Source: a virus. From it: a stretch of 24,005 bases of DNA. The stretch is taken from positions 1 to 24,005 of the IMG/VR virus record IMGVR_UViG_3300041809_000503; one strand, written 5' to 3'. The first letter of the stretch is position 1; each line of letters opens with the position of its first letter. The position numbers and the translations under genes were made by a program. Below, in pieces: positions 1 through 17,210 of this stretch. The notes under the pieces are model-generated. The model saw only the letters and a list, made by a program, of their open reading frames with translations. It searched no databases and had not been told where the DNA came from.

Positions 1-407
1 GCTGGGAGCCCATATGCATAGGTCGTATCCGAAGTTATATAACCAACAATATATGAAACACCCGCCGTAAGTGTAATGGGCGTAATTGGAATATCAACCC
101 AAGAGGCGGTTCCGGCATAACCACAAGCGTTAGCGACCCAAGTGCTTGTATTGTAGTTATCAATGTAACCCTGAATAGTTTGGGAGGAATAGGCATTGTA
201 AATACGAATAACGTTCACAGTCGTATTTGTTACAGGTACAGCAACATCTCCATTATAAAAAGGAGTGCCACCTGGAGAAGCACACCCATCGCAAGAAGGG
301 CCTGGATATCCAACAGCAACAGTATAGGGAGTGATAGCGGGGATAACTTGCGTCCAAGCTGAGAAGGGAATCAATAAAAAAAGGATTAAAAATAAAAGTT
401 TTTTCAT
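1..407 (-). CDS. Secreted protein of unknown function (partial, C-terminus beyond left edge)
   Basis: The reading frame opens at ATG 407 and runs without a stop through base 1, so at least 135 residues are encoded and the C-terminus lies outside the window. The N-terminus MKKLLFLILFLLIPFSAW is a textbook Sec signal peptide (two Lys, a long Leu/Ile/Phe core), with cleavage probably near residues 17-20. The mature part is rich in Thr, Val, Tyr and Gly and looks like beta structure. It contains a CDGC pair near residue 53 and another Cys near residue 100, possibly disulfide-bonded outside the cytoplasm. The start overlaps the stop of the upstream gene (ATGA), so translation is probably coupled. 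I do not recognise the family. It is the last visible member of the promoter-led group that contains the tail fibre. Confidence 0.75.
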   Translation of the reverse strand, partial: MKKLLFLILFLLIPFSAWTQVIPAITPYTVAVGYPGPSCDGCASPGGTPFYNGDVAVPVTNTTVNVIRIYNAYSSQTIQGYIDNYNTSTWVANACGYAGTASWVDIPITPITLTAGVSYIVGYITSDTTYAYGLP

Positions 408-757
408 TTATCAACCAAACTCGGAATGATGTTGTTGACGATAAAGTCACACGATGCAATTTCTTGACCCAATGATGTGAGAGAGTACTTGTAAGTTGTG
501 ACGGAATTTGCGTCATCATCATTTTGAAGTTGAGCGTATTCTAATTTGAGTTGGGCGAGAGAATTTTCAAAAACGGAGACTGATACCGGATTACTTAATG
601 CGCTCTCGTTAATAAACCAACTATTGTGTGCCGAATCATACGAAGCAACTGTTCCCTTGCAATAAACATAATCTGTCCACGCTTGATTCAGCGCATCGGA
701 TTCAGTCTGCGCCCACATCGGAACCGTCAGGAAGAAGGCTAGAAGAAAGTATTTCAC
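404..757 (-). CDS. Small secreted/periplasmic protein of unknown function
   Basis: This 117-aa protein starts at a GTG codon (757) 11 bases after the stop of the upstream gene. The GTG is preferred because later Met codons would remove the signal peptide. The first 17 residues (MKYFLLAFFLTVPMWAQ) form a short Sec signal peptide ending in a plausible A-Q cleavage site. The mature part of about 100 residues is acidic and mostly helical by eye (a segment rich in Leu, Gln, Glu and Asp around residues 65-85). It has two Cys residues (about 33 and 103) that could form a disulfide. The stop overlaps the ATG of the next gene in an ATGA arrangement. A spanin or other lysis accessory was considered but there is no lipobox or proline-rich signature. 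Function unknown. Confidence 0.7.
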   Translation of the reverse strand: MKYFLLAFFLTVPMWAQTESDALNQAWTDYVYCKGTVASYDSAHNSWFINESALSNPVSVSVFENSLAQLKLEYAQLQNDDDANSVTTYKYSLTSLGQEIASCDFIVNNIIPSLVDK

Positions 758-768
758 GCTTCGCCGCC

Positions 769-1128
769 TTATTTGGTATTTCCCGGACTCTGAAATAATT
801 CAAAATTATAATCAATTTCGGTAACACCAGACGTGTTGTAAAGAATAATTGCGTTATTGGTTGATGGATTTTGAAAAATATAGGGTGTAATAAATCCATT
901 AGATGAAACATCCGTTTTAATGACCGTTGTTCCACCAGAAGTAACAATAATAGGTGCGCTCGTTTTGTTCGTTGAGGTTATCATGCACTCAAACGAATAT
1001 GCCTTATTCGTCCCTGGTGCAATCGCTATTGTTACTGGAGTTGAAGAACTGGACGAATTAACCACAAATGTTGTTAGCGCATTGGCTGTTCCTGTCATTA
1101 GAATTAAAGCAAAAATTATTTTTTTCAT
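769..1128 (-). CDS. Small secreted beta-rich protein of unknown function
   Basis: This 119-aa protein has a strong ribosome binding site (AAAGGAG, 7 bases before ATG 1128). The N-terminus MKKIIFALILMTGTANA is a classic signal peptide with an A-N-A cleavage box at residue 17. The mature part is Ser/Thr/Val/Ile-rich (an SSSSS stretch follows the cleavage site), has no long helices and a single Cys (about residue 48), consistent with a small beta-sandwich. It directly follows the tail-fibre gene, whose stop lies only 12 bases upstream so that the Shine-Dalgarno overlaps the end of that gene. It could be a cell-surface protein or a fibre partner; a secretion signal argues against ordinary cytoplasmic assembly into the virion. 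No family recognised. Confidence 0.75.
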   Translation of the reverse strand: MKKIIFALILMTGTANALTTFVVNSSSSSTPVTIAIAPGTNKAYSFECMITSTNKTSAPIIVTSGGTTVIKTDVSSNGFITPYIFQNPSTNNAIILYNTSGVTEIDYNFELFQSPGNTK

Positions 1129-1140
1129 CGCAAAACTCCT

Positions 1141-2091
1141 TTAAGAAATTACCAACCAAGCCGAACCGGGTGAACTAAATTGTTTAGCATAAATTAAATC
1201 AACACCAGTATTTGCGGCCAATACAAAATCAATTGCACCGGGACAAAAAAACCGATTACTTGTCGCTGATTGTCCATCATTGTGTTTCAAGGTTATTGTA
1301 TATGAAGATTCGTTAAAAATTGTTGTCCTTTGTGTTCCAAATGTTGATATTCCATAGGGAATATACATTCCAGTTAAAACTATATTTCCGCCTTGTGGGA
1401 TAATATTAATTAAACCATATTTTGAATATGATCCGCCAGGGTTGTAATCATTAAATGGGGAATTGACTGAATTTAAGTTTGACTCTTGAAATTCTTGTGT
1501 GGGGATGTGCAAAAATGTGGTTAATGAAAATTCATTGGTAAATGCCAATAACGTTGCCCAAAATGAATTTATGACCGTATTTATGACACCCGACAAAGAA
1601 ACATTTCCCAAAACATCAAATCCCAAAAACTTTGATGCTCTATTGATTATGGATGGAAGAGTTAAATTAACTGTTCCGGCAGGTTCGCTATCTGGTGCTT
1701 TAATGCTTTTGTTTATCTGTTCTTGTTGCTGTAAATCTTTGGTTGCCAACGTATCAAATTCAGCCTCATGCACATAAGCATAATATCGCTGATTGTCTTT
1801 AATGGATGTGTCTTGTGTCCCATCCACATTAGAAATTATCGCCAAATGCTCACCAGCTAAGAGCGCATTTATTAGAGTAATATTGGCACCTTGCGAATAA
1901 TCACCTGGCGATAAAATCCCAACAATCGTATAACCCGTATTCAAAGATAGGATTGTGTCATTTCCATAAGTGTCAGTTTGAATAACTTCAAGTGAATTTA
2001 TGCCTGAACAGTTGAAATTAAAACCGAAAGGGCCGGTAGTCGGGGAGGTTGCCGAATAATCAGCCCTTATGGTTGTTGACGAGATAGTCAT
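1141..2091 (-). CDS. Tail fibre / receptor-binding protein with T7-fibre-like N-terminal adaptor
   Basis: This 316-aa protein has two recognisable parts. Residues 1-135 match the general pattern of the podovirus tail-fibre N-terminal adaptor: a start near TTIRADYSATSPTTGPF, an LxVxxxxxxG strand, an L..NTGYTI turn, GTQDTS near 91-96, and the HEAEFDTLATKDLQQQEQ helix at 108-125 that in relatives leads into a trimeric shaft. The middle (135-190) is a short shaft-like segment. The last ~120 residues are beta-rich, with ITLKHNDG, NRFFCPG and a final SAWLVIS, a pattern seen at phage fibre C-termini. There is no signal peptide. The start overlaps the upstream stop by one base (TGATG). At 316 aa it is short for a complete fibre, so other receptor-binding proteins may exist. 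Fibre identity is fairly sure; receptor unknown. Confidence 0.8.
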   Translation of the reverse strand: MTISSTTIRADYSATSPTTGPFGFNFNCSGINSLEVIQTDTYGNDTILSLNTGYTIVGILSPGDYSQGANITLINALLAGEHLAIISNVDGTQDTSIKDNQRYYAYVHEAEFDTLATKDLQQQEQINKSIKAPDSEPAGTVNLTLPSIINRASKFLGFDVLGNVSLSGVINTVINSFWATLLAFTNEFSLTTFLHIPTQEFQESNLNSVNSPFNDYNPGGSYSKYGLINIIPQGGNIVLTGMYIPYGISTFGTQRTTIFNESSYTITLKHNDGQSATSNRFFCPGAIDFVLAANTGVDLIYAKQFSSPGSAWLVIS

Positions 2092-2261
2092 CAGTTACTC
2101 GGTGTTGGTGTATTGGTGGGTGTTGGGGTGATGGTGGGCGTTAAAGTTATAGTTGGTGTATTGGTTGCTACCGCAGGAGTTCTGGTTCCCGTCATGGTTG
2201 CAGTGTTAGTCATTGTATTAGTCGGAGTTTTAGTTATTGTCGGAGTAGCCGTGGGGGTTAA
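2091..2261 (-). repeat. Thr/Pro linker-coding imperfect tandem repeat (first copy)
   Basis: About 56 codons encode a degenerate TPTxTPTNT array built on a 6- to 12-base DNA period (plus strand words such as ggtgttggtg and gtgggtgtt). The same kind of array occurs at 14407-14610, giving two similar low-complexity tracts in one genome where length change or recombination could occur. Confidence 0.8.
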
Positions 2262-2906
2262 TGTCGCATAGCCATATACTGCCCAAATTACAGACTTAGT
2301 TAATCCACCATAAGAATTAGGAGTAGGAGCATAAGTAGATGGTGTTCTTACTCCAATTATAAAAGGATATTGAGCTTTACTGTCGGTAACATTATAAACA
2401 CTTCGATGAATCTTGGCACGATAACCACGTTGCGCCCTAGCCACAACAATTTGATTAGTGTATAAACTGACGTATGAACCCGTAGATAAAGCAAATGGGG
2501 TTGGGGTTGGATGACCTTTGGCCAAAATAACCACCGACTCTAAACTGGGATCACGATTATTAGGTGACACAAAAGCACTTGAGGTTTTACCATAAGAAAA
2601 AATCCAAACATGATATTGACCTACATTAGCTGGATCAGGTATTAGTGTTGCTTGATATGTGGGAACATTCAAAACTACTTGATCTTTACTTACTGAACCC
2701 AAAATAACAGCCGTAGTGAATGGAGTGGGAGTATAAGTGGCTGTGGCCGTATAACCAGCGACAGCAGTTTTCCATACCGATATAGTGCCCGTATAAGTAG
2801 CTGTAGGAGTAAAGGTGGCCGTTGGTGTCCACAACCCAGGATTCATACTACCTGTAGCATTAGCCACGCTTGCCATCAACATCAAAGCAATCAAAATTTT
2901 CTTCAT
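2091..2906 (-). CDS. Secreted Thr/Pro-rich surface-type protein
   Basis: This 271-aa protein starts at ATG 2906 with AAGGGGAAG just upstream. Residues 1-17 (MKKILIALMLMASVANA) are a signal peptide with an A-N-A box. Residues 27-40 and 53-63 carry short TPTAT-type repeats. Residues 65-215 form a globular, Val/Tyr/Ser-rich region with no family I recognise. Residues 216-271 are almost entirely Thr, Pro, Asn and Ala in a TPTxT register and end the protein. Such stretches usually act as extended, often glycosylated spacers in exported bacterial proteins. It is the first gene behind the promoter at 2940-2967 and precedes the tail-fibre gene with a one-base overlap, so the two should be made together. 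It may be a host-surface or fibre-associated protein; function is not known. Confidence 0.75.
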   Translation of the reverse strand: MKKILIALMLMASVANATGSMNPGLWTPTATFTPTATYTGTISVWKTAVAGYTATATYTPTPFTTAVILGSVSKDQVVLNVPTYQATLIPDPANVGQYHVWIFSYGKTSSAFVSPNNRDPSLESVVILAKGHPTPTPFALSTGSYVSLYTNQIVVARAQRGYRAKIHRSVYNVTDSKAQYPFIIGVRTPSTYAPTPNSYGGLTKSVIWAVYGYATLTPTATPTITKTPTNTMTNTATMTGTRTPAVATNTPTITLTPTITPTPTNTPTPSN

Positions 2907-2939: not shown

Positions 2940-2967
2940 ATTATACCCAAAGCATTAAAGTAAGCAA
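2940..2967 (-). promoter_or_regulatory. Sigma70-type promoter for the fibre / secreted-protein group
   Basis: On the minus strand a perfect -10 box TATAAT (2945-2940) follows a TTGCTT -35-like box (2967-2962, three of six consensus bases) at a 16-base spacing. It lies in the only real gap (2907-2968) in this part of the window, just after the stop of the 1680-aa gene. A start site about 7 bases beyond the -10 would give a ~27-base leader that carries the AAGGGGA ribosome binding site of the 271-aa gene. This suggests separate control of the fibre and secreted genes. Confidence 0.6.
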
Positions 2968-2968
2968 C

Positions 2969-5900
2969 CTATTTTTGGGGAGTTCCGGATACCAATCCCC
3001 TAGCAAAATCCAAAGCCCCACGTGATCTATATTCGTGTGATCGTAATCCCGCAAGATAAGACGTTGGACGAGCCAACCATGTGGCTGGTCTAACACCAAA
3101 AGTGGCTAATGTATTCATAAAATCTCTTGTAGCAATTCGGGCCGATCCCTCGTGATGTAAGGCGTGGTTTATTTCAAATGGGGTTTTCATGGCCGTTTCT
3201 AAAGCGTCAAACGCCGGACTTATTTGCATATCTGACCCAAATTTACCATGCGTCATTTGATGACTAATAAACTCTTGAGCCTGACTTGTCCAAGGAATAA
3301 CACCCGCCGCATTTCTTAATTGGGAACCAAATAGCCAATCCAAATATGCCTTTGGCATTGTTTCATCTGGTGTTTTACCAATCAAACCTCTTCCGCCCAC
3401 CTCATTGTGATAAGTTTTCCACAAGATTGCTGTGGCCGCCCCCCCCATCATATAAACCAAAAATAATCTTGCGACCCGCCTTGAAAGTCCAGCCCCATCC
3501 ACCAATTTATTTAATGCGTATTGTTTTGCACCCAATGGTGCGGGTGGTCCAATTTGGGGTTGTTCTTTATATTCGATACCCTTAACACCACGTTCAATTC
3601 CATATCCACGGCTAGCCTTAACAAATTCAGTTTCCGCCAAATTATATTGAGTGTTAAAAAATCCATAAAACATTATCATCATTTTTTTAAATGGAGTTCC
3701 AGTCATAACAGGAGAAACTTCTTCTGGATTAAATGATCCCTGAGTCTTAATGACGGTATCTTCGGCGTGTCTTATGGCATCTTGCATTGAATAACCCAAT
3801 CCCCCCTCTTCTTTGGGCGTTAGTGCCTCTTCTTTAGCTCCATGATAAACAACATGATCCATCATGTGATGAATCATCATTTGTAAACAATAAGCGTGTT
3901 TATCTAAAAAATCATTGGACTTATTGTAAAAATTTTTATTGAAAATAATGTTGTTAATGAGTTGTTGGGTTTCCAGTCCGGAAATCACACCTGGGCGAGT
4001 TGCCATAAATTTAGATTCCGCTCTGTTGGCTTCGGCTAGTTCAAACGGGTGATGTGTGTATTCTACAAAAGCGTTGGCCATGTGAGTTGGACTTACCTTT
4101 AAAGAGGCCAAAGATAAGCTCATGGTTCTTGAAAGAACATCTGCTATGTTAGCCGTTAAATATGCTTGTCCTACATTTCGCCTCAATAAATGAAAAGCAT
4201 TATCTAAAAACGGATAATCTGTAGATTCTTCCGTACGTTGCCTGGCGGCAGTTCTTAGCCAGGGTAATAAAATTGACCTTGCGGCAATCGGATCGGTTTG
4301 TCCTAAAGAGGCTCTAAAATCTTTATTAAATACTAATCTGCTTATTTCTTGAACTCTTGGTTGAAGGTGAATATATCTCAAGGCCCAATCAACATGGTGC
4401 ATGGCGAGAGAAATATCCATTTTAAGCGGTTCGGCATAAAATTCGTTTCTAGCCAAAGTTGAACCTTTGCCCACGGTTGGGAAAATCGTATTATCGTATT
4501 GAGCTTCTATTTCAGCCTTGGCTTCTCTGTTGTGTGCATCTTCATTTTTCCAAGGGTCAACTTTTGCAGGAAAATACCCCCCCTTCACGTCTCCATAAAG
4601 AGTGTGAAGTGTTCTGGGTAAAATTTCAGGAAAATTAAAACCATTCATTTCTTTGTGAGAATCTTGAAGGCGTGGCCTTAATTCCTCCATAATATCCCAA
4701 ATTCCCTTAACCGCCTTGTAATGCGCTTTGGTTAATTTACCACTATGTTCCAGTTCTTTTATAAACGCATCCCATCGAGATGTGTTTAATAACCGCTTTC
4801 CCGTTTCATCTGTTTGAATTTTTCCGTTTTCATCTTTGAAAAAATCACCCCAAGGATTGCCGTCTATATCCCTATTTCCCCTCAGCAACTTTTGAAGATT
4901 ACTGTCGTTTCCGGTATGAAGCAGGGCACCCATAACTTCATTCATTCCGCCAAATTCATATTTTAAATCTTTCGATTTAATCGATTTATTATCCAATGTG
5001 TCTTTAATTGGGTCTAAAGCATCCAATAATTTGTGATAATATTTATCACTCTCAATTCTATAATCATTCGAGGCGTCTCTAATTGGTTGAATTAGTTTGG
5101 TTTGATATGGTCTTTCTGGGTCATTGGCATCCATAACTTCGGCCCAAGAAGAAGCCATCCTTAAACTGGCCTTTAATTGCAAAAATCCTATTTGAAATTT
5201 TTGAAAATCAGATAAAGCCTTGCGAGTGGTATCATATAAATTTGATTTTGGCAAATCCTGATTATGTGTAACAAATTGATTTTTAACATCTTGTAAATTT
5301 TCGTATTTGCCCTTAATTTTGATTTTATTAACACTTCCAGCCTTATCCCATAATGCTTGAACCGTGTCACGAACTTCTTTGAAATCACCCAAGGCAAGTT
5401 CTTTAAATTTACCCTGGATAGACATGGCTGAAATAAGTTTATCTCTTAAACCCATATAAGAATCTAGGTCTTGTGGAGATTGTTTTAATCCCTCCAATAA
5501 ATCAAGTGGACTATCTCCGGCCTTGCCATTCTTAAATTGTTCCAAAATTCTGCGTCCCGCATTAATCAAATCTATATCCCTTCCCTTGGCGAGAGCAGAG
5601 TCTTTTTTTGAAAAATTACTAAACAAATCATAGGCACCATTTATTGTATCTTTAACCTTTGTGGCCTCTACGGCCAAAGCGTGATTTAGGATTGCTTTCT
5701 CAAAATATTTTTGTGATTTTTTCTGATCATCGGTCAATGCCGATTTTAATGCGGCCATCTTTTCTTTTTTGGCAAACGCAAGAATGTTCTTAGCGTTTTT
5801 CCAGGGTAGATTATCAATAATTTCTTTGGCCTTTTCGGTGGCCACTCTGGCTTGTTCTTGATGTATTCTTAATGCTTCTGGTTGATTGGTTGTGGTTTTA

Positions 5901-8011
5901 GATTCATTATTGTTCAATCTCATATTATCTATTGATTTTTTTTGAGACTCCAACCAAATAGATGTTGATTCAACGGTGGGATCAATTTTCTCTGGTTCAC
6001 TAACAACTTTAGGTTCAAACCAATCAACATATTTTTGAATTTTATCGGCAGAAAGTTCATCCCTTTTTTCTAATAAATTTAAGTGCTTTTTAACCAAATC
6101 ATCAAATTTCATCGGTACTTCTTCAGCAACACTTGATCGGTGTTCGGCTTCTAAGTGAAGTCGATTAACATTTATTTTATCTAACGGAGATGTTTCTTTT
6201 TTCTCTTTTTTCACCAACAAATCTTTTACTTTTTCTATAATTCCCTTAGCGGGTTCGGTGGCACTATTAATACTATCAATTTTAGCTTGCGCCTCAAATT
6301 TCTTTGTCTCCATTAATTTATCAATATCTTGACGAGATTTAATATCGTCTTTCATTTCCGAAACGGTGCGCTGATCAGAATCAAATTTAACGTGATCCGC
6401 AAGTCCCGCATATTCTGGCGTTCCCGATTTTTCGGAAATCCACTTAGCCATTTGCAAAGAAACTTCGTCTCCGCCATCGAGTGCGTTTTTATAACTTTTT
6501 CCAGCACCCATTTTTTCAAAATCTTTTTGGGGGTTTTTCCCAAGAGATTGATAAAGTTTTTCAACTTCATCCACGGGAAAGCTAATTAATTGGGATGATT
6601 TGTTATCTCTCAATGGTTCTGTAATTGTTTTATGAACATCTTTGGATATAGATTTTGTTTTAGATTCTTGTGCGTCTTTTTCCATTTGTAAATAAGCTGT
6701 TTTATTTACATTGGCGATAACAAAATTCTTGTTTAATTCTGTCATGCCAGCTTTTTCTAATTCGGGTATTTTTTTAGTCTCCGAAACCTCATTTCCGGCC
6801 AAGTGTGGCGCACCCAATAGGGTTCCGCCTATGTATCCAGAGGCAAAACGTTCTTTACTTTTTTCAATCTCATTATCAGTGGCATGTGGATTTACACCCG
6901 TGGCTTTATCAATTAAATCTTGAGCATATCCACCAATTTCGCTATATCCCACCATAATGGCTTGACTCTTGAAAATTTTACCTAAAACTCCCGATAAAAT
7001 TGCTTTTGCGCCCGATGGGCCCAACTTGTTTGCCCACCCATCAATAATTTTCAATGGGCCGGCGGACATTGTTGCCGCAGTTGCTATTCCACTAAATAAA
7101 GCATCGGCATTTTGTTGTGTATCAGAAGCCCCAACCGATTGAGCTTTCTTCATGTTTTCTGTGGCAGATTCAGTCCCCAATATTCCGGCTGTTAGTGGTG
7201 GAAACAATAAAGCGGTTCCAAGAGTCGGAAAATTACTTAAAAATTGAGCGGTACCCAATCTAACCGCACCCACCTGATCTCCCGATTCCCACCGATCAGT
7301 AATTTTTCCGTCTATTGATGCGGGATGCCACCAAGCCTCCGCACTTTCGGCCTCTTTACTTAATGCGTTTTCAATGGGTAAATTACTATTTGGCTGGTGA
7401 GATATTCCCGCTTCGCCCTCGCCCAACTCACCCAAAATATTAATCAAAGCGGCGGGAGCTTCTGTCATCGTTTCGCCTATTTTGGCAAAATTTTCCATCA
7501 TACCAGAAAGAACATCATTCATTGGATTGTTAGCAGTCGGTTTAATTCCATTTAAAAGTGAATTGGTTTTGTCAAAATTTAATATAGATGTGGCTTCGTG
7601 ATGATCGTTAATGGTTTGAGATGTTTGAATTAAGTTGGGAATATCGTTGTGCGAAACCGCCATATTCTTGGGATCGCTCAATATTTCTGCTAACTTAGGA
7701 TGGTTTTGTGAAATATCGTTCAATATGTTTTGTTGTGGAATATTTTTTGATTTATTTATATCTTCCAAATTGTTTTCAACAAAAGATGGGTCTAATCCGG
7801 TTTTTTGAACGCCATCCATAATCATAGTGTTTTTTGTGGCATCTGTATTTTTAACAGCATCCATAGACTTTTGAATTGGATTGGCTTCATCTGGAACACC
7901 GGATAATAATTTATCTTTTAAATCTTCATTATTATTGGTTATTGGTTGATTGTGAATATCATCCACACCAGCCATTAATTTGCTTTGAATGTCTTGATCG
8001 TTATTGGGCAT
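2969..8011 (-). CDS. Very large internal (ejected) virion protein
   Basis: This 1680-aa protein occupies the place of the largest internal core protein of podoviruses (T7 gp16-like position). Residues 1-170 are Asn/Asp-rich and helical. Gly/Ala-rich hydrophobic segments near 258-280, 303-320 and 390-405 could insert into membranes. The long middle (about 420-1000) is Lys/Glu-rich and helical or coiled-coil-like. The C-terminal third resembles the region shared by large injected phage and polyvalent proteins (VIKTQGSFNPEE, then a MFYGFFNTQYN segment), with another hydrophobic stretch near 1516-1532 (LFLVYMMGGAATAILW). I see no clear lytic transglycosylase motif. The start overlaps the upstream gene by 11 bases. 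Role as a DNA-ejection protein is inferred from size, context and architecture; the exact domain family (possibly LPD38-like) is uncertain. Confidence 0.75.
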   Translation of the reverse strand: MPNNDQDIQSKLMAGVDDIHNQPITNNNEDLKDKLLSGVPDEANPIQKSMDAVKNTDATKNTMIMDGVQKTGLDPSFVENNLEDINKSKNIPQQNILNDISQNHPKLAEILSDPKNMAVSHNDIPNLIQTSQTINDHHEATSILNFDKTNSLLNGIKPTANNPMNDVLSGMMENFAKIGETMTEAPAALINILGELGEGEAGISHQPNSNLPIENALSKEAESAEAWWHPASIDGKITDRWESGDQVGAVRLGTAQFLSNFPTLGTALLFPPLTAGILGTESATENMKKAQSVGASDTQQNADALFSGIATAATMSAGPLKIIDGWANKLGPSGAKAILSGVLGKIFKSQAIMVGYSEIGGYAQDLIDKATGVNPHATDNEIEKSKERFASGYIGGTLLGAPHLAGNEVSETKKIPELEKAGMTELNKNFVIANVNKTAYLQMEKDAQESKTKSISKDVHKTITEPLRDNKSSQLISFPVDEVEKLYQSLGKNPQKDFEKMGAGKSYKNALDGGDEVSLQMAKWISEKSGTPEYAGLADHVKFDSDQRTVSEMKDDIKSRQDIDKLMETKKFEAQAKIDSINSATEPAKGIIEKVKDLLVKKEKKETSPLDKINVNRLHLEAEHRSSVAEEVPMKFDDLVKKHLNLLEKRDELSADKIQKYVDWFEPKVVSEPEKIDPTVESTSIWLESQKKSIDNMRLNNNESKTTTNQPEALRIHQEQARVATEKAKEIIDNLPWKNAKNILAFAKKEKMAALKSALTDDQKKSQKYFEKAILNHALAVEATKVKDTINGAYDLFSNFSKKDSALAKGRDIDLINAGRRILEQFKNGKAGDSPLDLLEGLKQSPQDLDSYMGLRDKLISAMSIQGKFKELALGDFKEVRDTVQALWDKAGSVNKIKIKGKYENLQDVKNQFVTHNQDLPKSNLYDTTRKALSDFQKFQIGFLQLKASLRMASSWAEVMDANDPERPYQTKLIQPIRDASNDYRIESDKYYHKLLDALDPIKDTLDNKSIKSKDLKYEFGGMNEVMGALLHTGNDSNLQKLLRGNRDIDGNPWGDFFKDENGKIQTDETGKRLLNTSRWDAFIKELEHSGKLTKAHYKAVKGIWDIMEELRPRLQDSHKEMNGFNFPEILPRTLHTLYGDVKGGYFPAKVDPWKNEDAHNREAKAEIEAQYDNTIFPTVGKGSTLARNEFYAEPLKMDISLAMHHVDWALRYIHLQPRVQEISRLVFNKDFRASLGQTDPIAARSILLPWLRTAARQRTEESTDYPFLDNAFHLLRRNVGQAYLTANIADVLSRTMSLSLASLKVSPTHMANAFVEYTHHPFELAEANRAESKFMATRPGVISGLETQQLINNIIFNKNFYNKSNDFLDKHAYCLQMMIHHMMDHVVYHGAKEEALTPKEEGGLGYSMQDAIRHAEDTVIKTQGSFNPEEVSPVMTGTPFKKMMIMFYGFFNTQYNLAETEFVKASRGYGIERGVKGIEYKEQPQIGPPAPLGAKQYALNKLVDGAGLSRRVARLFLVYMMGGAATAILWKTYHNEVGGRGLIGKTPDETMPKAYLDWLFGSQLRNAAGVIPWTSQAQEFISHQMTHGKFGSDMQISPAFDALETAMKTPFEINHALHHEGSARIATRDFMNTLATFGVRPATWLARPTSYLAGLRSHEYRSRGALDFARGLVSGTPQK

Positions 8012-9902
8012 TTAGATCAATCCCATAGGCACGGGCATTATCAATGATTTTATTTATTTTTTCAGCATCAAGTGTTTGTCCCGGCCTCGTTTTCATAAAA
8101 TACTTAATTGCCGCATTACCAATAGTTCCGCTCTTTATTCTTCCCGTCCCAGAAACACTTGCGTCATCACATTTAATTTTATTTCCAAAATCATAAACAT
8201 CAAGCGGAGAAACCTGGCTATATATTTTCCCTTGCTCTAATGACTTTGAATCAACAATTTTATTAACAACATCGTCACCAATATCTTTGTTATATGTGTC
8301 CCATTTATCTTTATCTAATTTATAATTTTCATAATCCTTTTCAAAATTAAATGTCCCCTTCCAATCGGCGGAATCTAGTGATTTTTTAGCATAATCCAAT
8401 AATTCTGTCGGATTCATATCAACGGAATGTTGATTTAACATTTGATTAAATTCTTCTAATTCATCTGGGTCTTTCGTTTGTCTTTTTGCCAAAGACATGG
8501 CAGAATCTTTAGCTTGTTTAATGGCCGGATTTAAACCGGCACTATTGGGGCCATTAACATATTTAGCCCAATATCTTCCGGCATCATTGGCTTGTTGGAG
8601 TGTTATATCTCCGTTTGTTAATTCATCGGTAATATTTTTATAAGAAAAATCCTTATTTCCCATTGATTCAATTAAACCATTAAAATTCTTAATGTTACTG
8701 GGATTGATATTCAAGTCACGATTATAAATGTAATCCAAAACCTTAGAACCCAATGCTCTTTCATCTGTATTAAATTTTGTACCCAATGTGGTATTTAACT
8801 TTTGTGCGTCAGCGTAGCTAATTCCTTTATCGTGTGCTTGTTGGAAATGATTAAAATATGTATCAAACGTTTCTTTTTTATTGGTATCGGAAACCAATCT
8901 TTGATTTCTAGCATATTCAATCATTTTTCCAACCCACTTATCTCTCATTTCATCTGTCCAGTGGGGATTGTCTTTTTGAACATTTCTGCCATCCGCCTCA
9001 ATCGCCGCAAAGTTATAAGTTCCATCACCATATTGATATTGTTTTAAGCTAGCCGAATCTCGTAATGCCGTGTTCACCACATCCACTTCTTGAACGTGTT
9101 GCAAAAGTTGTGGCATACGTTTTTCATTAATTGCATCTGGATTGTCATCGATGATTTTATAAGCTAAATCAGAATTTCCGTTTCTGGCCTCAAGCATAAC
9201 CCTTGTTCCCAGTGCGGTGCTAAAATTATCCAATTTCTGTTTTTGTGTTATTTCGTGATCTGGCCCATATCCATAAACACCACTCATTGTTTTTTCGGTT
9301 AAATCATCCATGTTTTTCTTGGCTAAATTTCTATCGGCATCTGTTTGAGCTTTGGCATATTGATTTTGATAAATATCAACTAATGCCCCATAATCTTCTT
9401 TTTGTTTTTGTTTTAAAGCCTCGCCCGCATGAGATTGCAATTCACTTTGTAGGCTGTTTTTTAACTCAGTTGATCTATTATTAAATAGCTGACTTTGGTA
9501 TTCACCATTAACATTCTTGTTTAAGTCCGCAACATATTTCTCGTAAGCATCTTGCGTGGGCTGTATTTGAGAAAGTGCTTTATCACCCTCGGCTTGTTTA
9601 GCGGTAGCCAATAATTGATCTTTATAATTTGCCGCCTTAAGAGTTAAATCATTAACACGCACCTCATCGGCATTTTTACGTAATTTTTCCATTAAACCAG
9701 ATGCTTCTTCGGTGACACCTCGCACAGCTCTGTTGGCGGCTTCGGCTTCGGGGCCACCACCAAACGCCTCAATGGGAGCTTGGGTTGTAAATTCCTCATT
9801 GGGTATTATTCCGGGAGGAACTTCTCGTTGTGCGCTTGGTGATTCAACCGTTGGAACTCTCACTTTATACCCCCCCGAATGCACCAATGGCTTTAATGCC
9901 AC
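8001..9902 (-). CDS. Internal virion protein (T7 gp15-like position)
   Basis: This protein (633 aa from GTG 9902) is largely alpha-helical, rich in Lys, Asp, Asn and Gln with few hydrophobic clusters, and lies between the small Gly-rich internal protein and the giant one, as the middle ejection protein does in podoviruses. The N-terminal part contains RVPTVESPSAQ and, around residues 30-55, PIEAFGGGPEAEAANRAV, like the start of related internal proteins. The start is ambiguous. GTG 9902 has an AGGA 10 bases upstream but overlaps the previous gene by 38 bases. GTG 9863 (giving MRVPTVESP, 620 aa) begins one base after the previous stop and is preceded by a G-tract, and I find it at least as likely. 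Function is inferred from order and composition. Confidence 0.7.
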   Translation of the reverse strand: MALKPLVHSGGYKVRVPTVESPSAQREVPPGIIPNEEFTTQAPIEAFGGGPEAEAANRAVRGVTEEASGLMEKLRKNADEVRVNDLTLKAANYKDQLLATAKQAEGDKALSQIQPTQDAYEKYVADLNKNVNGEYQSQLFNNRSTELKNSLQSELQSHAGEALKQKQKEDYGALVDIYQNQYAKAQTDADRNLAKKNMDDLTEKTMSGVYGYGPDHEITQKQKLDNFSTALGTRVMLEARNGNSDLAYKIIDDNPDAINEKRMPQLLQHVQEVDVVNTALRDSASLKQYQYGDGTYNFAAIEADGRNVQKDNPHWTDEMRDKWVGKMIEYARNQRLVSDTNKKETFDTYFNHFQQAHDKGISYADAQKLNTTLGTKFNTDERALGSKVLDYIYNRDLNINPSNIKNFNGLIESMGNKDFSYKNITDELTNGDITLQQANDAGRYWAKYVNGPNSAGLNPAIKQAKDSAMSLAKRQTKDPDELEEFNQMLNQHSVDMNPTELLDYAKKSLDSADWKGTFNFEKDYENYKLDKDKWDTYNKDIGDDVVNKIVDSKSLEQGKIYSQVSPLDVYDFGNKIKCDDASVSGTGRIKSGTIGNAAIKYFMKTRPGQTLDAEKINKIIDNARAYGIDLNAQ

Positions 9903-10482
9903 TGGTTATAAATCCTGCTGTACCACCCAGCATGGTTTGATTAGCTTTATTTTCTGCCGCTATTGTAGTTTCTGCGGCTTCGGTTTCTTCATTTTGTGCC
10001 TTAATCTTATATCCCCACGCTTCCATGTTGGCGTTATGGGCTATGGTAGCAGAATCCATGCCGCCAAGATTAGATGTTTCTTGTTGTACGGCCCTGGCCG
10101 AACCAAAATTAGAATTAACATTTTCAGAGGCATAACTCGTTTTTTGTTGCCCTTCAATGCCTGCTGTTTTTGCATTTTCCAATTCCGACTCAAATTGTCC
10201 CTTTTCACCAGCCTCTTTACCCTGCAAATCGGCTAACTGAGCATTTAATTCAAGTTGTTGGGACTGAAATTGTCCCTGTTTTATGTCGGCATTTGCTTGC
10301 TGTCCAGCACCATTCAAATCAATTAAACCACTTAAAATGTCCCCAACACCACCCAAATTTTTTAACAAAGACGATGTGCTATTAGATGGAATAACTGTTT
10401 GGTCTGGAATTGGAATGGACGGATCGGTCAAACCAATATCGGGTAATGGCGGGGGTGTCGGATTTAGAATATCTAAAGGCAT
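9865..10482 (-). CDS. Small internal virion protein (T7 gp14-like position)
   Basis: This 205-aa protein has a Pro-rich N-terminus (residues 1-35), a Gly/Leu segment (41-57), a Gln/Ala/Glu-rich helical middle with an N..AWGYKIKAQNEE motif near 150-167, and a Gly/Ile/Ala C-terminal tail (183-205) able to enter a membrane. This layout is typical of the smallest ejected core protein of podoviruses, which inserts in the host outer membrane. Its ATG overlaps the stop of the tail nozzle gene by one base (TAATG), with GGGAGG a few bases upstream. It is followed immediately by the other two internal protein genes, forming the usual trio. Confidence 0.7.
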   Translation of the reverse strand: MPLDILNPTPPPLPDIGLTDPSIPIPDQTVIPSNSTSSLLKNLGGVGDILSGLIDLNGAGQQANADIKQGQFQSQQLELNAQLADLQGKEAGEKGQFESELENAKTAGIEGQQKTSYASENVNSNFGSARAVQQETSNLGGMDSATIAHNANMEAWGYKIKAQNEETEAAETTIAAENKANQTMLGGTAGFITSGIKAIGAFGGV

Positions 10483-13400
10483 TATTTTCCTCCCGTTTGA
10501 AAATCAGCCTGAACACCAATGGCCTCTAAATTGCAAGGCATTGGGTCAATACTTCTGATAAAAATTGACGCACCATAATCAAACGATGATGGTACTTGTG
10601 TTAATATTCTACCAGTTTTTAAAGCTGTTGGATTATCATAATTCTCATCTTTTCGTTTACCGGACTCAATTAACCCATAAACCAGATTCGTTGTGCCTGG
10701 AACTGGCTGATTTTGGGGAGACCTTGGATTAGTATCTGGGTTCTTATGGCCTACATAAAAATCTTGTGTGTTTTTAACATAAGAAAGAAAACGATTAGCT
10801 TTCATTTTTTTATCTATAAAGGTTTCTCCCTTAGGATCGTCAATATCTAGTGTTTCGAGGTCAGCTAAATAGGGCAACCCAACATGAATAACCGCATAGT
10901 TTTCTGGCAACGTTAAAGCCCCACCAGAAACCGTTAATGTGAGATAATCATTATTTTGGGGATTAGCAACCAATGTTCCGTCCGCATAAACAGCTACTTT
11001 ATAGCCATTGAGATAATCAAGTCCCGTTAAAGAAGAAACCGCTTGCGACCACTTGGTTATTGCTACACTACGCATATTGGAATTAATGGTGCCATCTGTT
11101 TGATATGAATTTGCGCCATCGGGTACGGTTTCTCGCACGGTTCCGGTAACAACGGTTGTACTAGTATATCCCTCAATAACAAAACGCAATAAATAGCCAT
11201 CTGTGCCATAAAGAAATATCTCATCACCAACCATTGAATTTGCAAAAAATGGAGCGGATGCTGTAAGCGTTAAGTTTTGTGTACCGTCCCATAAAGTGCT
11301 TCCCGCTGTCAGCGATAAGGTCATCGTTGTGGGTGTGGTATTTCGACCATCAAACGAAGTCATGCAATCAAGATAATTGGCATTCAAGATATTTGTCCAT
11401 TGGTCGCTTGACATTCTCTCGATAAACCTTGTTCCATTACGATTAACACAAAAATAAGGAACACACTCCAAACCTTCTGGAACCACACACACATTTTCAA
11501 AATTACCATTGGTATCGTGTTGGTGCCACCCACAAATTTGCTGTTCTTTTATGTAAGTTAAACCCAAAAGTTTTCCATCTTCACGAACGGCCCAAATTGT
11601 TGAATCCATTAACTTTTGAAAATCCCATTCAACAATTGAATGTCCCTGAACAAGGTGTTCTGCAAACATGGTTAATTCATCAGAACCGGAAAGATAAGTA
11701 AATCCATAGGGAGATATAGTTACCGATATATCCCGTACCAGGCTGGATTGAGCCTGCACATAAATAACATTTTGATTAGTAACAATGGGTGACAAGAATG
11801 ACGATCCATTAAAAGTTTGTGGCCTATTGTTTGCGGCAAGCGGGGTGAATGTACCCGTGCCGTCACCGGCCACAACGGTTTCTCCGGTGTCCAATAAAAG
11901 TATAAGAAATCCAAAACTAATGGCGTTTTGAAGCGTGCCTCCGTGTTTTGCCTCAAGAACCACATCAATGGCATCATCGGCCTGGATGTTGTAGTGATCC
12001 GTAAAATTGGTATAAAAACCAACCCTTGAAGCTAACAATTCAAGCGGATTCTTTTGAGGGGCTCCCAAAATCAATCGTTGCTGAAATAACTCAATAACGG
12101 TTGGATAATCATCGGACGTAACGAATCTTTGGGCATTATTAGGTGGATCAAAATTAACATCGGGAACAATGCCTGTATCAGCAAAATTAACACCCTGTGT
12201 AGTTCCAATAAATCCAAATACTCCACCAGCACCCTTATAAATATTATAGGTTACATTTTGGGGATATGAGCCACCTATATTATCTGGATTATATGACCAA
12301 CTCAACATATTAGGATTTGAAAGAGTGGGTTGCGCACAATTTGCCAAATATATTTGTATAGCTTGCATCCTAGATTTTGTTGTTATCGCATTTTCAGTGT
12401 ATTCACTTCCATCAACATATATATAAACCTCATTTTCAGAAACAACAAATACATTAAAAATACGATTATCTAATTGAGGCCAATTAGTATTGTAAAGCAA
12501 AACTTGATCTCCGCTATTTAAGTTGTGATTTCCATTTACAATAATATCAATGGCTTTTTGTCCAGAATTCCAATTCAAATATGTTATTTGTGTTGCCCCT
12601 AAATATTGAGATTGTCCAGGAGTTATTTCAGAAGCCACGGGATCAGGAACACCAGACGGATAATTAACACAAGTAAAGGTATTATTTGAAAGAGTAATCA
12701 TTGGCTGTGGTTCGTTTGCCAAACTACCCGCAAATTCTATTTTTATGGGATTGGCGGGAAGCGCACTCCCAAAATAAAACAAAGCCAACCACGCAGAACC
12801 GCTTATCATATCTCCATTAACAACAACACTTCCGCCCACGCCACCAATAGAACTTAAAGCATTTAATCCCGCCTGTATTTGGGCAATCGAATCACTCCCG
12901 GAGCTTGTATAATATTGTCCATTAAAATTTATTGTAATTGATCCGTTTATTGGATTTGCGGGATCAACGGGTGCATTTGTGCCAGTTATACCCTGAACTT
13001 CATTTTGGGGGGTTTGCGCCACACCAACTGGCATAGGAAAACTCTCTTCTCCGGTAGATAAATCTTCAATAGTTACTTTATATTGATAATTATTTGTTCC
13101 GCTGGCACCCGCCACCGCCGTAACAATAGCGGTATCCGATAACACACTCGGTACAAAATTAATCGGACTCCACGCCCATCCAGTATTTATATCTGTTCCC
13201 GTCCAAACTAATTGTTGCGGAGGATGATCGCCTTGCACAAAATACATGGTTTGTCCCGGTGGTTGTCTATGTTTTATATTCGTTAAATCATCAGACAAAT
13301 AAGGCGTTGTTAAATATCCATTACCCGTTCCATCTGGATCGGTAATCAACGTACCGTTATACCAAAGCCTTAATTTGCCATTAGTAAACTCAAGCAAAAC

Positions 13401-13625
13401 ACCTTGAGACTGAGTAACATAAAACGTGATAAGTTTAACTGGATTGTTCGATGGTGTAGTGCCACACATGGTTGTGCCAGTGCGTTTATTGGGATTGCCA
13501 AAACGATCAATAAAGAAATTCCTTACCGTTTTAAGGCTCATGCCATATTTAGGTAGATCATGTTTGGCATAGAAATCTGGCGAGATTTCTCCGCCAGAAA
13601 AATTACGTTGTAAAAATGAAAACAT
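10482..13625 (-). CDS. Tail nozzle / tail tubular protein B-like
   Basis: This 1047-aa protein begins with a pattern typical of podovirus tail nozzle or stabilisation proteins: residues about 8-20 FSGGEISPDFYAK, then KTVRNFFIDRFG and NKRTGTTMCG, then a LITFYV...LLEFTNGKLRLWYNG strand pair. The middle is beta-rich. A segment near residue 500 (PTVIELFQQRLILGAPQ) and the following VGFYTNF match the wheel-like core of this family. It is longer than T7 gp12 (about 790 aa) because of extra beta domains near 200-330. A good AGAGGA site precedes ATG 13625. It would form the distal tail tube below the adaptor. There is no signal peptide. Confidence 0.85.
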   Translation of the reverse strand: MFSFLQRNFSGGEISPDFYAKHDLPKYGMSLKTVRNFFIDRFGNPNKRTGTTMCGTTPSNNPVKLITFYVTQSQGVLLEFTNGKLRLWYNGTLITDPDGTGNGYLTTPYLSDDLTNIKHRQPPGQTMYFVQGDHPPQQLVWTGTDINTGWAWSPINFVPSVLSDTAIVTAVAGASGTNNYQYKVTIEDLSTGEESFPMPVGVAQTPQNEVQGITGTNAPVDPANPINGSITINFNGQYYTSSGSDSIAQIQAGLNALSSIGGVGGSVVVNGDMISGSAWLALFYFGSALPANPIKIEFAGSLANEPQPMITLSNNTFTCVNYPSGVPDPVASEITPGQSQYLGATQITYLNWNSGQKAIDIIVNGNHNLNSGDQVLLYNTNWPQLDNRIFNVFVVSENEVYIYVDGSEYTENAITTKSRMQAIQIYLANCAQPTLSNPNMLSWSYNPDNIGGSYPQNVTYNIYKGAGGVFGFIGTTQGVNFADTGIVPDVNFDPPNNAQRFVTSDDYPTVIELFQQRLILGAPQKNPLELLASRVGFYTNFTDHYNIQADDAIDVVLEAKHGGTLQNAISFGFLILLLDTGETVVAGDGTGTFTPLAANNRPQTFNGSSFLSPIVTNQNVIYVQAQSSLVRDISVTISPYGFTYLSGSDELTMFAEHLVQGHSIVEWDFQKLMDSTIWAVREDGKLLGLTYIKEQQICGWHQHDTNGNFENVCVVPEGLECVPYFCVNRNGTRFIERMSSDQWTNILNANYLDCMTSFDGRNTTPTTMTLSLTAGSTLWDGTQNLTLTASAPFFANSMVGDEIFLYGTDGYLLRFVIEGYTSTTVVTGTVRETVPDGANSYQTDGTINSNMRSVAITKWSQAVSSLTGLDYLNGYKVAVYADGTLVANPQNNDYLTLTVSGGALTLPENYAVIHVGLPYLADLETLDIDDPKGETFIDKKMKANRFLSYVKNTQDFYVGHKNPDTNPRSPQNQPVPGTTNLVYGLIESGKRKDENYDNPTALKTGRILTQVPSSFDYGASIFIRSIDPMPCNLEAIGVQADFQTGGK

Positions 13626-13647
13626 AGTTTCCTCTATTCATAAACAA

Positions 13648-14880
13648 TTAGGGCGTTGTTACATATCCCTGAATTAGGGTATTGGATTCTGTGTTAGCAG
13701 AACCTTTAACAGTTATCTTCCAATCGGTCTTTTGTGGAAAAATCAACGGCGAATCCATTGGGATGGGAATTGCACCCCCTGATAAAGACGAGACTGCATA
13801 CGGAAAATACTGTCCTACCGTGGTTACTGGCCCGTTGCCTGAATATGTTGAGTCAATCCTCATTCTTAATGTTCCAATATTTGCGGAATCCCTAGCGGAT
13901 GTGTATGTGATGTTTGTAATGTGGAGTGTAGTTCCATTGGCCACGCTCGAAAATCCACTTTCGTCTTTTGTTAGTTGAGCGAGAATTTCTCCATAGGTAA
14001 CTGCGCCGCCCAAAGACGTAATCACAATGTTCCCAACCGCCTCACCAACCGAACCAGTGGTTATTGCTGACATGTTTTTTATTCTGAATATCGCACCCGC
14101 TCCCACCGTTACCGGCGTTGTACCATTCATTGTCACTGTTAGTGCTTGGCTATTCCACGAACCATCAAGATACATTATGAAAAGTGTTCTAATTCCAACT
14201 CCAGCCGAAGTATCGCTAACACTAGAGGACGAAACCGACATTGATTGTGCGGTAACAGGAAATACATAAGTCCCTCCTGGTGCCCATTGGGTTTCATAAT
14301 CGTAAGAACCAAGAACCGAAATCGGCATGTAACCTTCTTTTTTAAATTCCGAATAACCAGGTATTAATCCTTGTGAAATTGCATCGTAAAAAGGAAGATA
14401 GGGAATTATTGTTGGGGTTGGAGTTGATGTATTTGTATAAGATGGTGTAATTGTTGCCGTATTTGTAGCTGTGCTGGTTGTCGTAGTAGTAGATGTTATG
14501 GTGGTTGTGTTTGTAGCTGTATTTGTAACTGTGATAGTTGGTGTGTTCGTGGGGGTATTTGTAGGTGTGTTAGTGGCTGTTGCTGTTGGTGTTCCAGTAG
14601 GCGTGTTTGTTATATAAGTAAAGGTTAAAGCATTAGAAGCATTAACATAAACATTAACCGTGCCGGCTGAATTGCTTGGGGCATTAACAACAAAAACATA
14701 AGATGAATGAGAATAAATATTAACACGCATTGACCCAAAATAAACATTGTCATTTCCAAATAGCCCATTACCATTTATGGTTACGGGCGTTCCAACGACA
14801 CCGGATGATGGGGATATTGAGCTAAGTGTTTGCCCCATACAAGGAATGGTTATTAAGAAAAAAAATAACCATTTATACAT
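13648..14880 (-). CDS. Signal peptide + IPT/TIG + Thr-rich linker + phage-type beta domain protein
   Basis: From ATG 14880 the product is 410 aa. Residues 1-17 (MYKWLFFFLITIPCMGQ) look like a Sec signal peptide. Residues 20-90 are an IPT/TIG immunoglobulin-like domain (SISPSSGVVGTPVTINGNGL, then VYFGSMRV). Residues 91-158 are a Thr/Asn/Pro linker. Residues 160-410 are a Ser/Thr/Gly-rich beta region (AISQGLIPGYSEFKKEGY, WAPGGTYVFPV, VTMNGTTPVTV) resembling virion-associated domains I have seen in environmental phages. ATG 14880 is preferred to ATG 14925 because it starts the signal peptide; it overlaps the adaptor gene by 8 bases. A GGGAGG lies about 18 bases upstream, rather far. It sits between adaptor and nozzle genes, so a tail or surface role is likely, yet the signal peptide is unexpected for a virion protein. 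Function unproven. Confidence 0.75.
   Translation of the reverse strand: MYKWLFFFLITIPCMGQTLSSISPSSGVVGTPVTINGNGLFGNDNVYFGSMRVNIYSHSSYVFVVNAPSNSAGTVNVYVNASNALTFTYITNTPTGTPTATATNTPTNTPTNTPTITVTNTATNTTTITSTTTTTSTATNTATITPSYTNTSTPTPTIIPYLPFYDAISQGLIPGYSEFKKEGYMPISVLGSYDYETQWAPGGTYVFPVTAQSMSVSSSSVSDTSAGVGIRTLFIMYLDGSWNSQALTVTMNGTTPVTVGAGAIFRIKNMSAITTGSVGEAVGNIVITSLGGAVTYGEILAQLTKDESGFSSVANGTTLHITNITYTSARDSANIGTLRMRIDSTYSGNGPVTTVGQYFPYAVSSLSGGAIPIPMDSPLIFPQKTDWKITVKGSANTESNTLIQGYVTTP
14407..14610 (-). repeat. Thr/Pro linker-coding imperfect tandem repeat (second copy)
   Basis: About 68 codons encode a linker dominated by Thr, Asn and Pro (TNTPTNTPT units shading into TTTTTST). The plus strand shows repeated gtgtttgtagg/gtatttgta words. 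It joins the IPT/TIG domain to the C-terminal beta region and resembles the array at 2091-2261 in composition and register. Confidence 0.8.
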
Positions 14881-15634
14881 TGTAATTATTCGGTAGAGCC
14901 TCCCACCGCCCTCCGTTCCTACCAACCATAGACGGAATCCCCCCCATTTGATGAGCTTTAGCTATATCCGAAATATATTCTTCGTCTGGCCTAATTTCAT
15001 TGGCATCACGCACAACCGCAAGCGACCATAATTGATCCGCCAAAAGCATATTCTTTTCACGTTGATTGGATGCCCCTGGCCCACCATATTTAACGGCTAT
15101 CTCACAAGAAAGAATCATAGCAAAAGCATCTACAAACATCGGTGGCATATCTGCTTCGGTGAACGATTTAGTGGTATAAACCCCAAGTGGAGAAAAGTGT
15201 TTAGATTCAAATTCAATTTCTTGCGGAGTTAAAATTGTTCCCGGCGGATGTTCACAGTGTCTACCGTGATTGGTATAAATAACTTGACCTTGCGGTGTTT
15301 TGCCCTTAACAAATCGAATGGTGTCATACTTTGTGTCAACATGCCTTCCATTCCAAATTCGCCTAAAGAATAAGCAATCAGAGGGTACTTTGTAAGCATA
15401 TTTCCACTCATCATTGGGGTGAAGTTGCGCTAGTTGAAGATGAGCATAAACCGTGGCCCAATTCCAATCATATCGTTGAAGCATGGCATTAAGCGTGTGG
15501 GTATAAAAAAGTTTTATACCTCTAGCCTCATCGCTGGCATCGGTTTCTAAATTTTGAATTTCGTCCGTAGACCCCAGATACCACAAAGCCATATTGGCTA
15601 TGCTCGTAGACGAGTTGGACTCATCAGGAAGCAT
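14873..15634 (-). CDS. Tail adaptor / tail tubular protein A-like
   Basis: This 253-aa protein matches the pattern of podovirus adaptor proteins that sit under the portal (T7 gp11 type): an N-terminal IANMALWYLGSTDEIQNL helix-loop, an EARGIKLFYTHTLNAMLQRYDWNWA segment (read as overlapping motifs around residues 35-60), the KYAYKVPSDCLFFRRIW strand near 79-95, and a late helix with MFVDAFAMILSCEIAVKY. About 250 residues is close to the usual family size of roughly 200-250. The start has no Shine-Dalgarno of its own but overlaps the stop of the 38-aa gene (TAATG), so translation is probably coupled. It would bind the portal on one side and the nozzle on the other. Confidence 0.8.
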   Translation of the reverse strand: MLPDESNSSTSIANMALWYLGSTDEIQNLETDASDEARGIKLFYTHTLNAMLQRYDWNWATVYAHLQLAQLHPNDEWKYAYKVPSDCLFFRRIWNGRHVDTKYDTIRFVKGKTPQGQVIYTNHGRHCEHPPGTILTPQEIEFESKHFSPLGVYTTKSFTEADMPPMFVDAFAMILSCEIAVKYGGPGASNQREKNMLLADQLWSLAVVRDANEIRPDEEYISDIAKAHQMGGIPSMVGRNGGRWEALPNNYNV

Positions 15635-15750
15635 TATTTTTTAACCGTAGGCTTAATCACAAGCCTGTTAAATTTTTTACCAATAACATAAGTGGGCTTG
15701 TCTTGTTTAATAACCACTTTCTTTTTTTTGAACAAATCAATTACGGCCAT
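15634..15750 (-). CDS. Very small Lys-rich protein (38 aa)
   Basis: A short reading frame starts at ATG 15750 behind a strong ribosome binding site (AAAGGGGGA, 3-4 bases before the start) and ends with TAA sharing one base with the adaptor ATG (TAATG). The product of 38 residues begins MAVIDLFKKKKVVIKQ and ends KPTVKK; about a third is Lys or Arg. The strong site, coupled stop/start and exact fit in the 15635-15770 gap support a real gene. A basic peptide could bind DNA or a capsid/tail interface, or may mainly serve to bring ribosomes to the adaptor gene. No family recognised. Confidence 0.65.
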   Translation of the reverse strand: MAVIDLFKKKKVVIKQDKPTYVIGKKFNRLVIKPTVKK

Positions 15751-15770
15751 AAATCCCCCTTTAAGTGGCA

Positions 15771-15956
15771 TTAATTCCCTTCGGTAGCATCATATCCACA
15801 ATCGGAATGATTGGTAATTGTTTCAGGAACCTTCTCCGAAATATCGTGGTGAGTAACCACAAATTGAGAATTTTGAACCGGATTAACCGGTTTGGGTGTT
15901 CCCTGAATCGTAGTTGCCGAATGATCTTTTTCTGATTCCATCTTCAATTTTCGCAT
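15771..15956 (-). CDS. Small hydrophilic protein of unknown function (61 aa)
   Basis: Starts at ATG 15956 with AAGGAG 7 bases upstream. The 61-aa product has a basic start (MRKLKMESEKDH), then a Thr/Pro/Val/Asn-rich polar region with several His and a C-terminal SDCGYDATEGN. No hydrophobic segment, so soluble. The gene sits right after the terminator at 15970-15997 and 20 bases before the 38-aa gene, in the slot between head and tail genes where podoviruses often keep small unconserved genes. Function unknown. Confidence 0.6.
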   Translation of the reverse strand: MRKLKMESEKDHSATTIQGTPKPVNPVQNSQFVVTHHDISEKVPETITNHSDCGYDATEGN

Positions 15957-15969
15957 TTTATTACTCCTT

Positions 15970-15997
15970 AAAAAAAATGCCCCGATACGGTCGGGGC
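15970..15997 (-). terminator. Rho-independent terminator between head and tail genes
   Basis: On the minus strand a perfect 7-bp GC-rich stem (GCCCCGA / TCGGGGC, 5-base loop CCGTA) is followed after one A by eight T. It begins 11 bases after the stop of the 199-aa gene. The T-tract runs straight into the AAGGAG ribosome binding site of the 61-aa gene, so read-through would be needed to express the tail genes unless another promoter serves them. Confidence 0.85.
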
Positions 15998-16007
15998 TAC
16001 CGTTTAA

Positions 16008-16607
16008 TTATCTACCCGAAGCGTTCTTGAGTTGAGCGTGAATCGCACCCAAAACACCTTCCCGCTTTTGTCCCTCTTCTTCCACTTCTAACCAACGTTT
16101 TAGAACTGGAATGGCTAATGTCTTGTTAATTAACGAAACAGCATCCTGAATCCCCAATTTATTAATATCGGATTCAGGCGAACTAACTTCTTTGTTAATG
16201 GTTGGAACAGCCTTAGAAGGAGCCGGTTTCATCCAAACCGGAGAATACTCCAAATACTTCAAATACAATTTTTTGTCCTCGGCAGTCAATCCCTTAATGG
16301 CGTTCTTAGCCAAGATTAATTGCCGTCTTTCCAACTCACTATATTCCCTTAAAACCCCACCATTTCGTGCGCCAACAGAAACAGCGGCCTGCTTAACAGG
16401 CTTCATGGTGGGTTTGCCTTTTTCATCCGTCAAAGGAACACCATCAGAAGTAAAAGCCTGCTCTTCCGAAACCTTTCCATCCTTGTCAGTCATAAAATGC
16501 GGAACAAGCGTATCAGGAATTTCAAAAATTTCTCCCGCCTTAATCATCCGATCAAAATAATAACCCGATGGATGTCCTTCCAACATCTGTTTGGCTTGTA
16601 CGAGCAT
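16008..16607 (-). CDS. Head-gene-cluster protein of unknown function (199 aa)
   Basis: ATG 16607 is chosen because AAAGGAG lies 5 bases upstream; a longer frame from GTG at 16658 would begin inside a strong hairpin and is rejected. The 199-aa product begins MLVQAKQMLEGHPSGYYFDR and looks mixed alpha/beta, with short segments such as AGEIFEIPDTLVPHF like small phage assembly proteins. The C-terminal part (about 160-199, NKTLAIPVLKRWLEVEEEGQ and then VLGAIHAQLK) is an amphipathic helical motif of Leu/Glu/Arg character that I have seen near capsid genes in other phages. It lies right after the decoration gene and before the terminator. It may be a head-completion or head-associated protein; not assigned. 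Confidence 0.6.
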   Translation of the reverse strand: MLVQAKQMLEGHPSGYYFDRMIKAGEIFEIPDTLVPHFMTDKDGKVSEEQAFTSDGVPLTDEKGKPTMKPVKQAAVSVGARNGGVLREYSELERRQLILAKNAIKGLTAEDKKLYLKYLEYSPVWMKPAPSKAVPTINKEVSSPESDINKLGIQDAVSLINKTLAIPVLKRWLEVEEEGQKREGVLGAIHAQLKNASGR

Positions 16608-16633
16608 AAACACTCCTTTAAAAATTTGTGAAA

Positions 16634-16664: not shown

Positions 16665-16698
16665 CTTCTTAAACTTAACAACTTTCCCAACAAAACAA

Positions 16699-17166: not shown

Positions 17167-17210
17167 AATAAAATTCCTTTCTTTAATTGGACTTTCGCCC
17201 GGTTATTTAA

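Follow-up and report, generated by a model that had tools for sequence, protein, structure and literature searches.

Gene content of the five-gene module

The window analyzed here is a genome fragment of 24,005 bases, the whole of IMG/VR record IMGVR_UViG_3300041809_000503. Its minus strand carries a podovirus virion operon encoding TerL, the portal, the scaffold/protease, the major capsid protein, gp11 and gp12, then internal virion proteins, a 1680-aa gp16-like protein and, at positions 1-2906, a module of five genes. The gp16-like product (2969..8011, minus strand), probably so judging by its position, matches PHROG_9880 (1.3e-136) and, by tblastn, 33 phage records, and its gene was used as the anchor for finding relatives. 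One of the records recovered, G001, represents the same phage (99.99% identity over window positions 5554-24005) and ends short of the module. No viral contig was found to contain the last gene of the module, and this truncated gene could not be extended.

All five open reading frames, which the initial annotation had described as coupled, are present on the minus strand and are separated by -1, 12, 11 and -4 nt, that is, they are tightly coupled. The first, P0001 (2091..2906, minus strand), encodes a signal-peptide protein of 271 aa consisting, after the signal peptide (SP), of a middle part and a Thr/Pro-rich C-terminal tract. Its gene lies between the gp16-like gene and the adapter gene, while in most relatives the adapter directly follows the gp16-like gene. 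That adapter, P0002 (1141..2091, minus strand; 316 aa), is a short tail-fiber adapter of the T7 type, with no SP and a small C-terminal knob. Over its N-terminal 115-164 aa it resembles the PHROG tail proteins 13893 (2.9e-15) and 1640 (5.5e-13), the adapter N-terminal domain of the T7-type module being present, and tblastn aligns it with Pelagibacter phage tail fibers and, over nearly its full length, with Manatee Spring podoviruses. P0002 is flanked by SP genes at gaps of -1 to 12 nt. P0003 (769..1128, minus strand; 119 aa) has an SP similar by eye to that of P0001 and is predicted, with low confidence, to be all-beta. P0004 (404..757, minus strand; 117 aa) has a GTG start and two cysteines in its mature part. 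P0005 (3..407, minus strand; at least 135 aa), rightly described earlier as open-ended, runs off the contig; it has three cysteines, is beta-rich in a low-confidence model and shows a weak match to DUF4082 (E=0.07). P0001 contains no cysteine and P0003 a single one.

As for homologues of the four SP proteins, P0001 matched no family at the cut-off, and searches of phages and of viral contigs gave no relatives for it; none were found in phages for P0003 and P0005. The only match of P0004, to L195, was dismissed as spurious, since it is a short chance match that falls on a gene from an unrelated tail module. No homology to a distal fiber segment was detected for P0001, P0003, P0004 or P0005. Single-sequence AlphaFold models were poor (pLDDT of 49 for P0003 and 54 for P0005), and the weak fold matches were left unused.

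The module had also been thought to stand behind one good promoter, a claim that we could not uphold. The 62-nt gap before P0001 does contain a promoter-like TTGCTT-16-TATAAT (2940..2968, minus strand), in which the TATAAT at 2945-2940 is perfect and the -35 box is poor. Its score is reached by 22% of shuffles, TATAAT occurs 13 times on the minus strand, and the element is no better than chance.

Signal peptides on the non-adapter genes

Signal peptides were called with a rule-based predictor that scores a charged n-region, a hydrophobic h-region and the -3/-1 cleavage rule. It predicts Sec/SPI signal peptides on all four non-adapter genes of the module (P0001, P0003, P0004 and P0005) and none on P0002, in agreement with the initial annotation, which had described four secreted proteins beside a cytoplasmic fiber. 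The likely cleavage sites, placed by the predictor and by eye, fall between MKKILIALMLMASVANA and TG, MKKIIFALILMTGTANA and LT, MKYFLLAFFLTVPMWA and QT, and MKKLLFLILFLLIPFSA and WTQ. False positives are rare with this predictor: 3 of 495 core virion genes (~0.6%), 77 of 12,135 internal-Met controls (0.6%) and 1.1% of reverse-strand spurious ORFs. No lipobox was called in any of the four proteins and no further transmembrane stretch is found in their mature parts, on which grounds we rejected a holin or spanin reading.

Among the other genes of the window, none gave an SP call except one encoding a 410-aa protein between gp11 and gp12 (13648..14880, minus strand), provided that ATG 14880 is taken as the start. 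The SP of this further protein is hidden otherwise because the longest-ORF start is TTG 14925. By eye, its N-terminal part is IPT/TIG-like; it also resembles P0001 in having a Thr/Pro tract, and its gene overlaps gp11 by 8 nt.

Recurrence in relatives

Relatives were collected from alignments of the gp16-like protein and of gp12, yielding 160 viral loci, some of them on the same contig, to which a genome scan added two. The scan was rejected as a guide to the host, as it gave only two phage-like contigs in MAGs, whose binning is not trustworthy. Extended fiber modules were obtained for 20 records, and clustering of the adapters at 90% identity left 48 non-redundant modules with at least 1 kb downstream.

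A convincing SP gene lies directly after the adapter in seven of these 48 modules (L020, L028, L174, L175, L177, L185 and L188), while in L176 and L119 an SP gene is found three or four genes past it. The automatic count was eight, including the first gene of L119; this 117-aa call is taken, by eye, to be a false positive, a similar L176 protein having no SP, and it was counted out. A call in L127 was likewise discarded, as it looks like a wrong start. Two more cases lie outside the 48-module set, MW202898 and L171 (different tail-fiber type). The frequency directly after the adapter, 7/48, compares with 3/495 for core virion genes (Fisher p=3e-6), a test which, like the two reported below, was made after seeing the data on an SP set hand-picked from hits, proteins of one phage not being independent. 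SP genes may also stand in a row, with four in L175 and six, the largest such array seen, after the fiber of L174 (1376-8513), on a contig binned with a Pelotomaculum MAG. Outside the fiber region, the major capsid proteins of L134 (4276-5409) and L160 (3483-4634) are extended at the N terminus by ~45 aa that look like an SP or a membrane segment and are absent in the other aligned relatives.

About 39 of the 48 relatives have no such SP gene, and in a few of them there are short genes for SP proteins or lipoproteins that resemble lysis proteins. Encoding a fiber together with several Sec-exported proteins is unusual, as had been supposed. The initial annotation would have been refuted by unlinking of its genes from fibers in relatives, and this is not what the relatives show: SP genes as such adjoin fibers in seven to nine of the 48 modules, although the window's own SP families were not found in the SP-bearing relatives, most relatives being without genes of this kind.

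Resemblance of relatives' signal-peptide proteins to fiber parts

The clearest case is the 657-aa SP protein of L177. Its counterpart is the stretch of residues 501-1051 in the single-chain fiber of L181 (595 aligned columns, 34% identity, E=4e-59), a 1105-aa protein that has the adapter and no SP. The distal fiber part thus belongs to one chain in L181 and is a separate SP-bearing chain behind a shorter adapter in L177. The same protein as in L177, again with an SP, is encoded in GenBank record MW202898 directly after a 305-aa adapter. There, the GenBank start (L194:5131-7884, UOF83102.1) lies upstream of the likely ATG 5164, which stands behind AAGGAG, and hides the SP.

In L143/L175, it is the adapter itself that begins with a putative SP, MFRLLLILCLLTFTAPVHA, followed by TISSTT; the gene has its own RBS and offers no alternative start upstream of the adapter domain. 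A cleaved product would begin with TISSTT, as mature adapters usually do, and L095 has an SP-less adapter with which it shares 72% identity. No SP was called from any in-frame start in the 96 other adapters. For the SP spike of L143 (743 aa, pectin-lyase-like), SP-less homologues begin near the expected end of the SP, and the same is true of a 120-aa SP family of L121/L147. The latter, encoded before gp11 and recognizable by an AASQT motif (L121:4913-5275, L147:8023-8385), has an SP in two phages and none in at least eight. Other SP proteins also resemble fiber or virion components. That of L188, a glycine-rich fiber protein, has hits to Gly_rich_2 and to PHROG_863, a family annotated as tail fiber assembly, and a 710-aa SP protein of L174 matches a virion structural family. 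Those of L020 and L171 have a common C-terminal part (79% identity) and different N-terminal parts, both with SPs. The premise of the initial annotation that podovirus virion proteins are without Sec signals is contradicted by these relatives, whose fiber proteins themselves carry predicted SPs.

The SP proteins might alternatively be secreted adhesins or enzymes captured from a host, acting as soluble or surface factors and not as virion parts. Their Thr/Pro tracts and style of SP look host-like to us, the L143 spike is pectin-lyase-like, and there is a precedent in the Bdellovibrio MAT fibers, which are SP-bearing, phage-fiber-like host proteins with exchangeable tips (PMC10769870). However, the MAT fibers are host-encoded, ~1,000 aa long and share a conserved N-terminal domain, whereas the window proteins are phage-encoded beside a virion adapter. 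The complete SP proteins of the window measure 117-410 aa and revealed, by blastp, no common domain after the SP comparable to the ~130-aa MAT domain. Moreover, the SP-less homologues in relatives are phage fiber proteins, and no host homologue was found, a weak negative because gp12 was the sole query in the scan of host genomes. We consider host capture improbable.

Adapter length and cysteine content

Modules with SP genes have shorter adapters than the others, with medians of 381 and 722 aa, respectively (p=9e-5, read with the reservation given above), and the window adapter measures 316 aa. It is as if the distal part had been moved to the SP gene, the virion chain being without the segment that the SP gene would supply. 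The SP proteins are also richer in cysteine, with 0.87 Cys per 100 aa versus 0.34 in SP-less fiber proteins, or 2.5 times more (p=8e-4, with the same reservation), and there are six cysteines in the SP protein of L177 and one in L181. Shorter adapters and cysteine enrichment both fit real export.

These features bear on whether the N-terminal segments are used for export at all. Cleavage is predicted from sequence, and the hydrophobic N-terminal extensions on the major capsid proteins of L134 and L160 would be compatible with such segments acting as an uncleaved membrane tether or assembly element, or with the genes being unrelated passengers. Canonical cleavage sites, an L143 SP that ends exactly at the mature adapter start and the abundance of cysteines all argue against this, and we regard it as very improbable.

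A tentative model for the module

Our preferred reading, which we advance tentatively as having a fair measure of doubt attached, is that the window contains a podovirus tail-fiber module in which a cytoplasmic adapter is served by Sec-exported partners, namely distal or receptor-binding parts and small accessory subunits. Escorting the fiber or coating virions had been among the options listed in the initial annotation. The adapter fiber would be made in the cytoplasm, while its partners, bearing cleavable Sec signal peptides, would be exported by the host. They would fold outside the cytoplasm under oxidizing conditions, with formation of disulfides and, possibly, attachment of glycans to the Thr/Pro tracts. 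Contact between the exported parts and virions bearing the adapter would come at lysis. Fibers can join particles in lysates, which is classical for T4 and for P22 tailspikes. For a virion part exported before lysis, we know of no evidence in tailed phages of such a later joining step. The scarcity of cysteine in P0001 and P0003 and the many relatives without an SP gene of this kind also speak against the model.

For the window, this reading draws on an operon that combines a short adapter with SPs. The sequences show SPs, tight gene coupling and a short adapter in the window and, in relatives, SP proteins that correspond to distal fiber segments or to an adapter; from this we infer actual export, joining to virions and the same role for the window's orphan SP proteins. 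As these have no homologue tying them to a fiber, the assignment follows from position and analogy, and we file the window as working like an SP-bearing distal fiber, not as a proven one.

For the same reason, namely that the SP proteins of the window have no detectable homologues, masking of the cell surface, also listed in the initial annotation and neither supported nor contradicted by the analysis, stays a serious rival. The SP proteins would then remain at the surface or in the periplasm of the infected cell, where, by blocking the receptor, they would prevent both superinfection and the loss of progeny on debris, much like Llp of T5. Llp blocks FhuA (PMC9586334), and Lom of lambda, encoded between spike and fiber genes, carries a signal peptide (PMC12309495); both are precedents for masking. 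The small size of P0003 and P0004 would suit such a role, as would the lectin-like Laminin_G_3 domains that L174 and L176 have in SP proteins. Llp, a small exported phage protein, is a functional model here; however, it is an early lipoprotein, whereas the window proteins have no lipobox, match no beta-barrel family and are encoded in the late virion operon. Masking, furthermore, needs neither SP proteins that are fiber segments nor an adapter with an SP, and both are indicated in relatives. While we judge masking unlikely, one protein set could both mask the receptor and serve the fiber.

If the exported-partner reading extends to the relatives, receptor-binding fiber ends made of Sec-exported, disulfide-stabilized subunits added at or after lysis may form a widespread podovirus variant, a generalization that we find possible although rather doubtful. 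By analogy, the window itself is a likely but unproven case. Tailed-phage virions are taught as built wholly in the cytoplasm; were the variant real, the last step of their assembly would be extracytoplasmic. Passage of fiber parts through Sec would provide host-range proteins with a separate maturation route, with disulfides and perhaps host glycans, and exported fibers could also shield infected cells. It would also follow that genes with SPs in phage fiber regions ought to be treated as more than passengers, and that some receptor-binding proteins escape any search from which secreted proteins are left out.

Relation to known systems

In the open-access literature searched, we found no report of SP-bearing tail fibers, which does not prove their absence. 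The SP-bearing fiber module is best described as a variant of the T7-type fiber module, its nearest precedents being Llp, Lom and the Bdellovibrio MAT fibers. It resembles the T7-type gp17 module in its adapter domain and in the order of its virion genes, which runs from the head genes through gp11, gp12 and the internal proteins to the gp16-like gene and then the fiber. It differs in that the fiber partners carry predicted Sec SPs, the adapter is short and, in the window, an SP gene stands between the gp16-like gene and the adapter. LtfA/LtfB of the T5-like phage DT57C are similar in making a fiber of two polypeptides instead of one; to our knowledge, neither has an SP. Among the relatives, Limnohabitans phage DC33 (L003, PQ492659.1) is filed under Inoviridae, yet has podovirus gp16-like and fiber genes.
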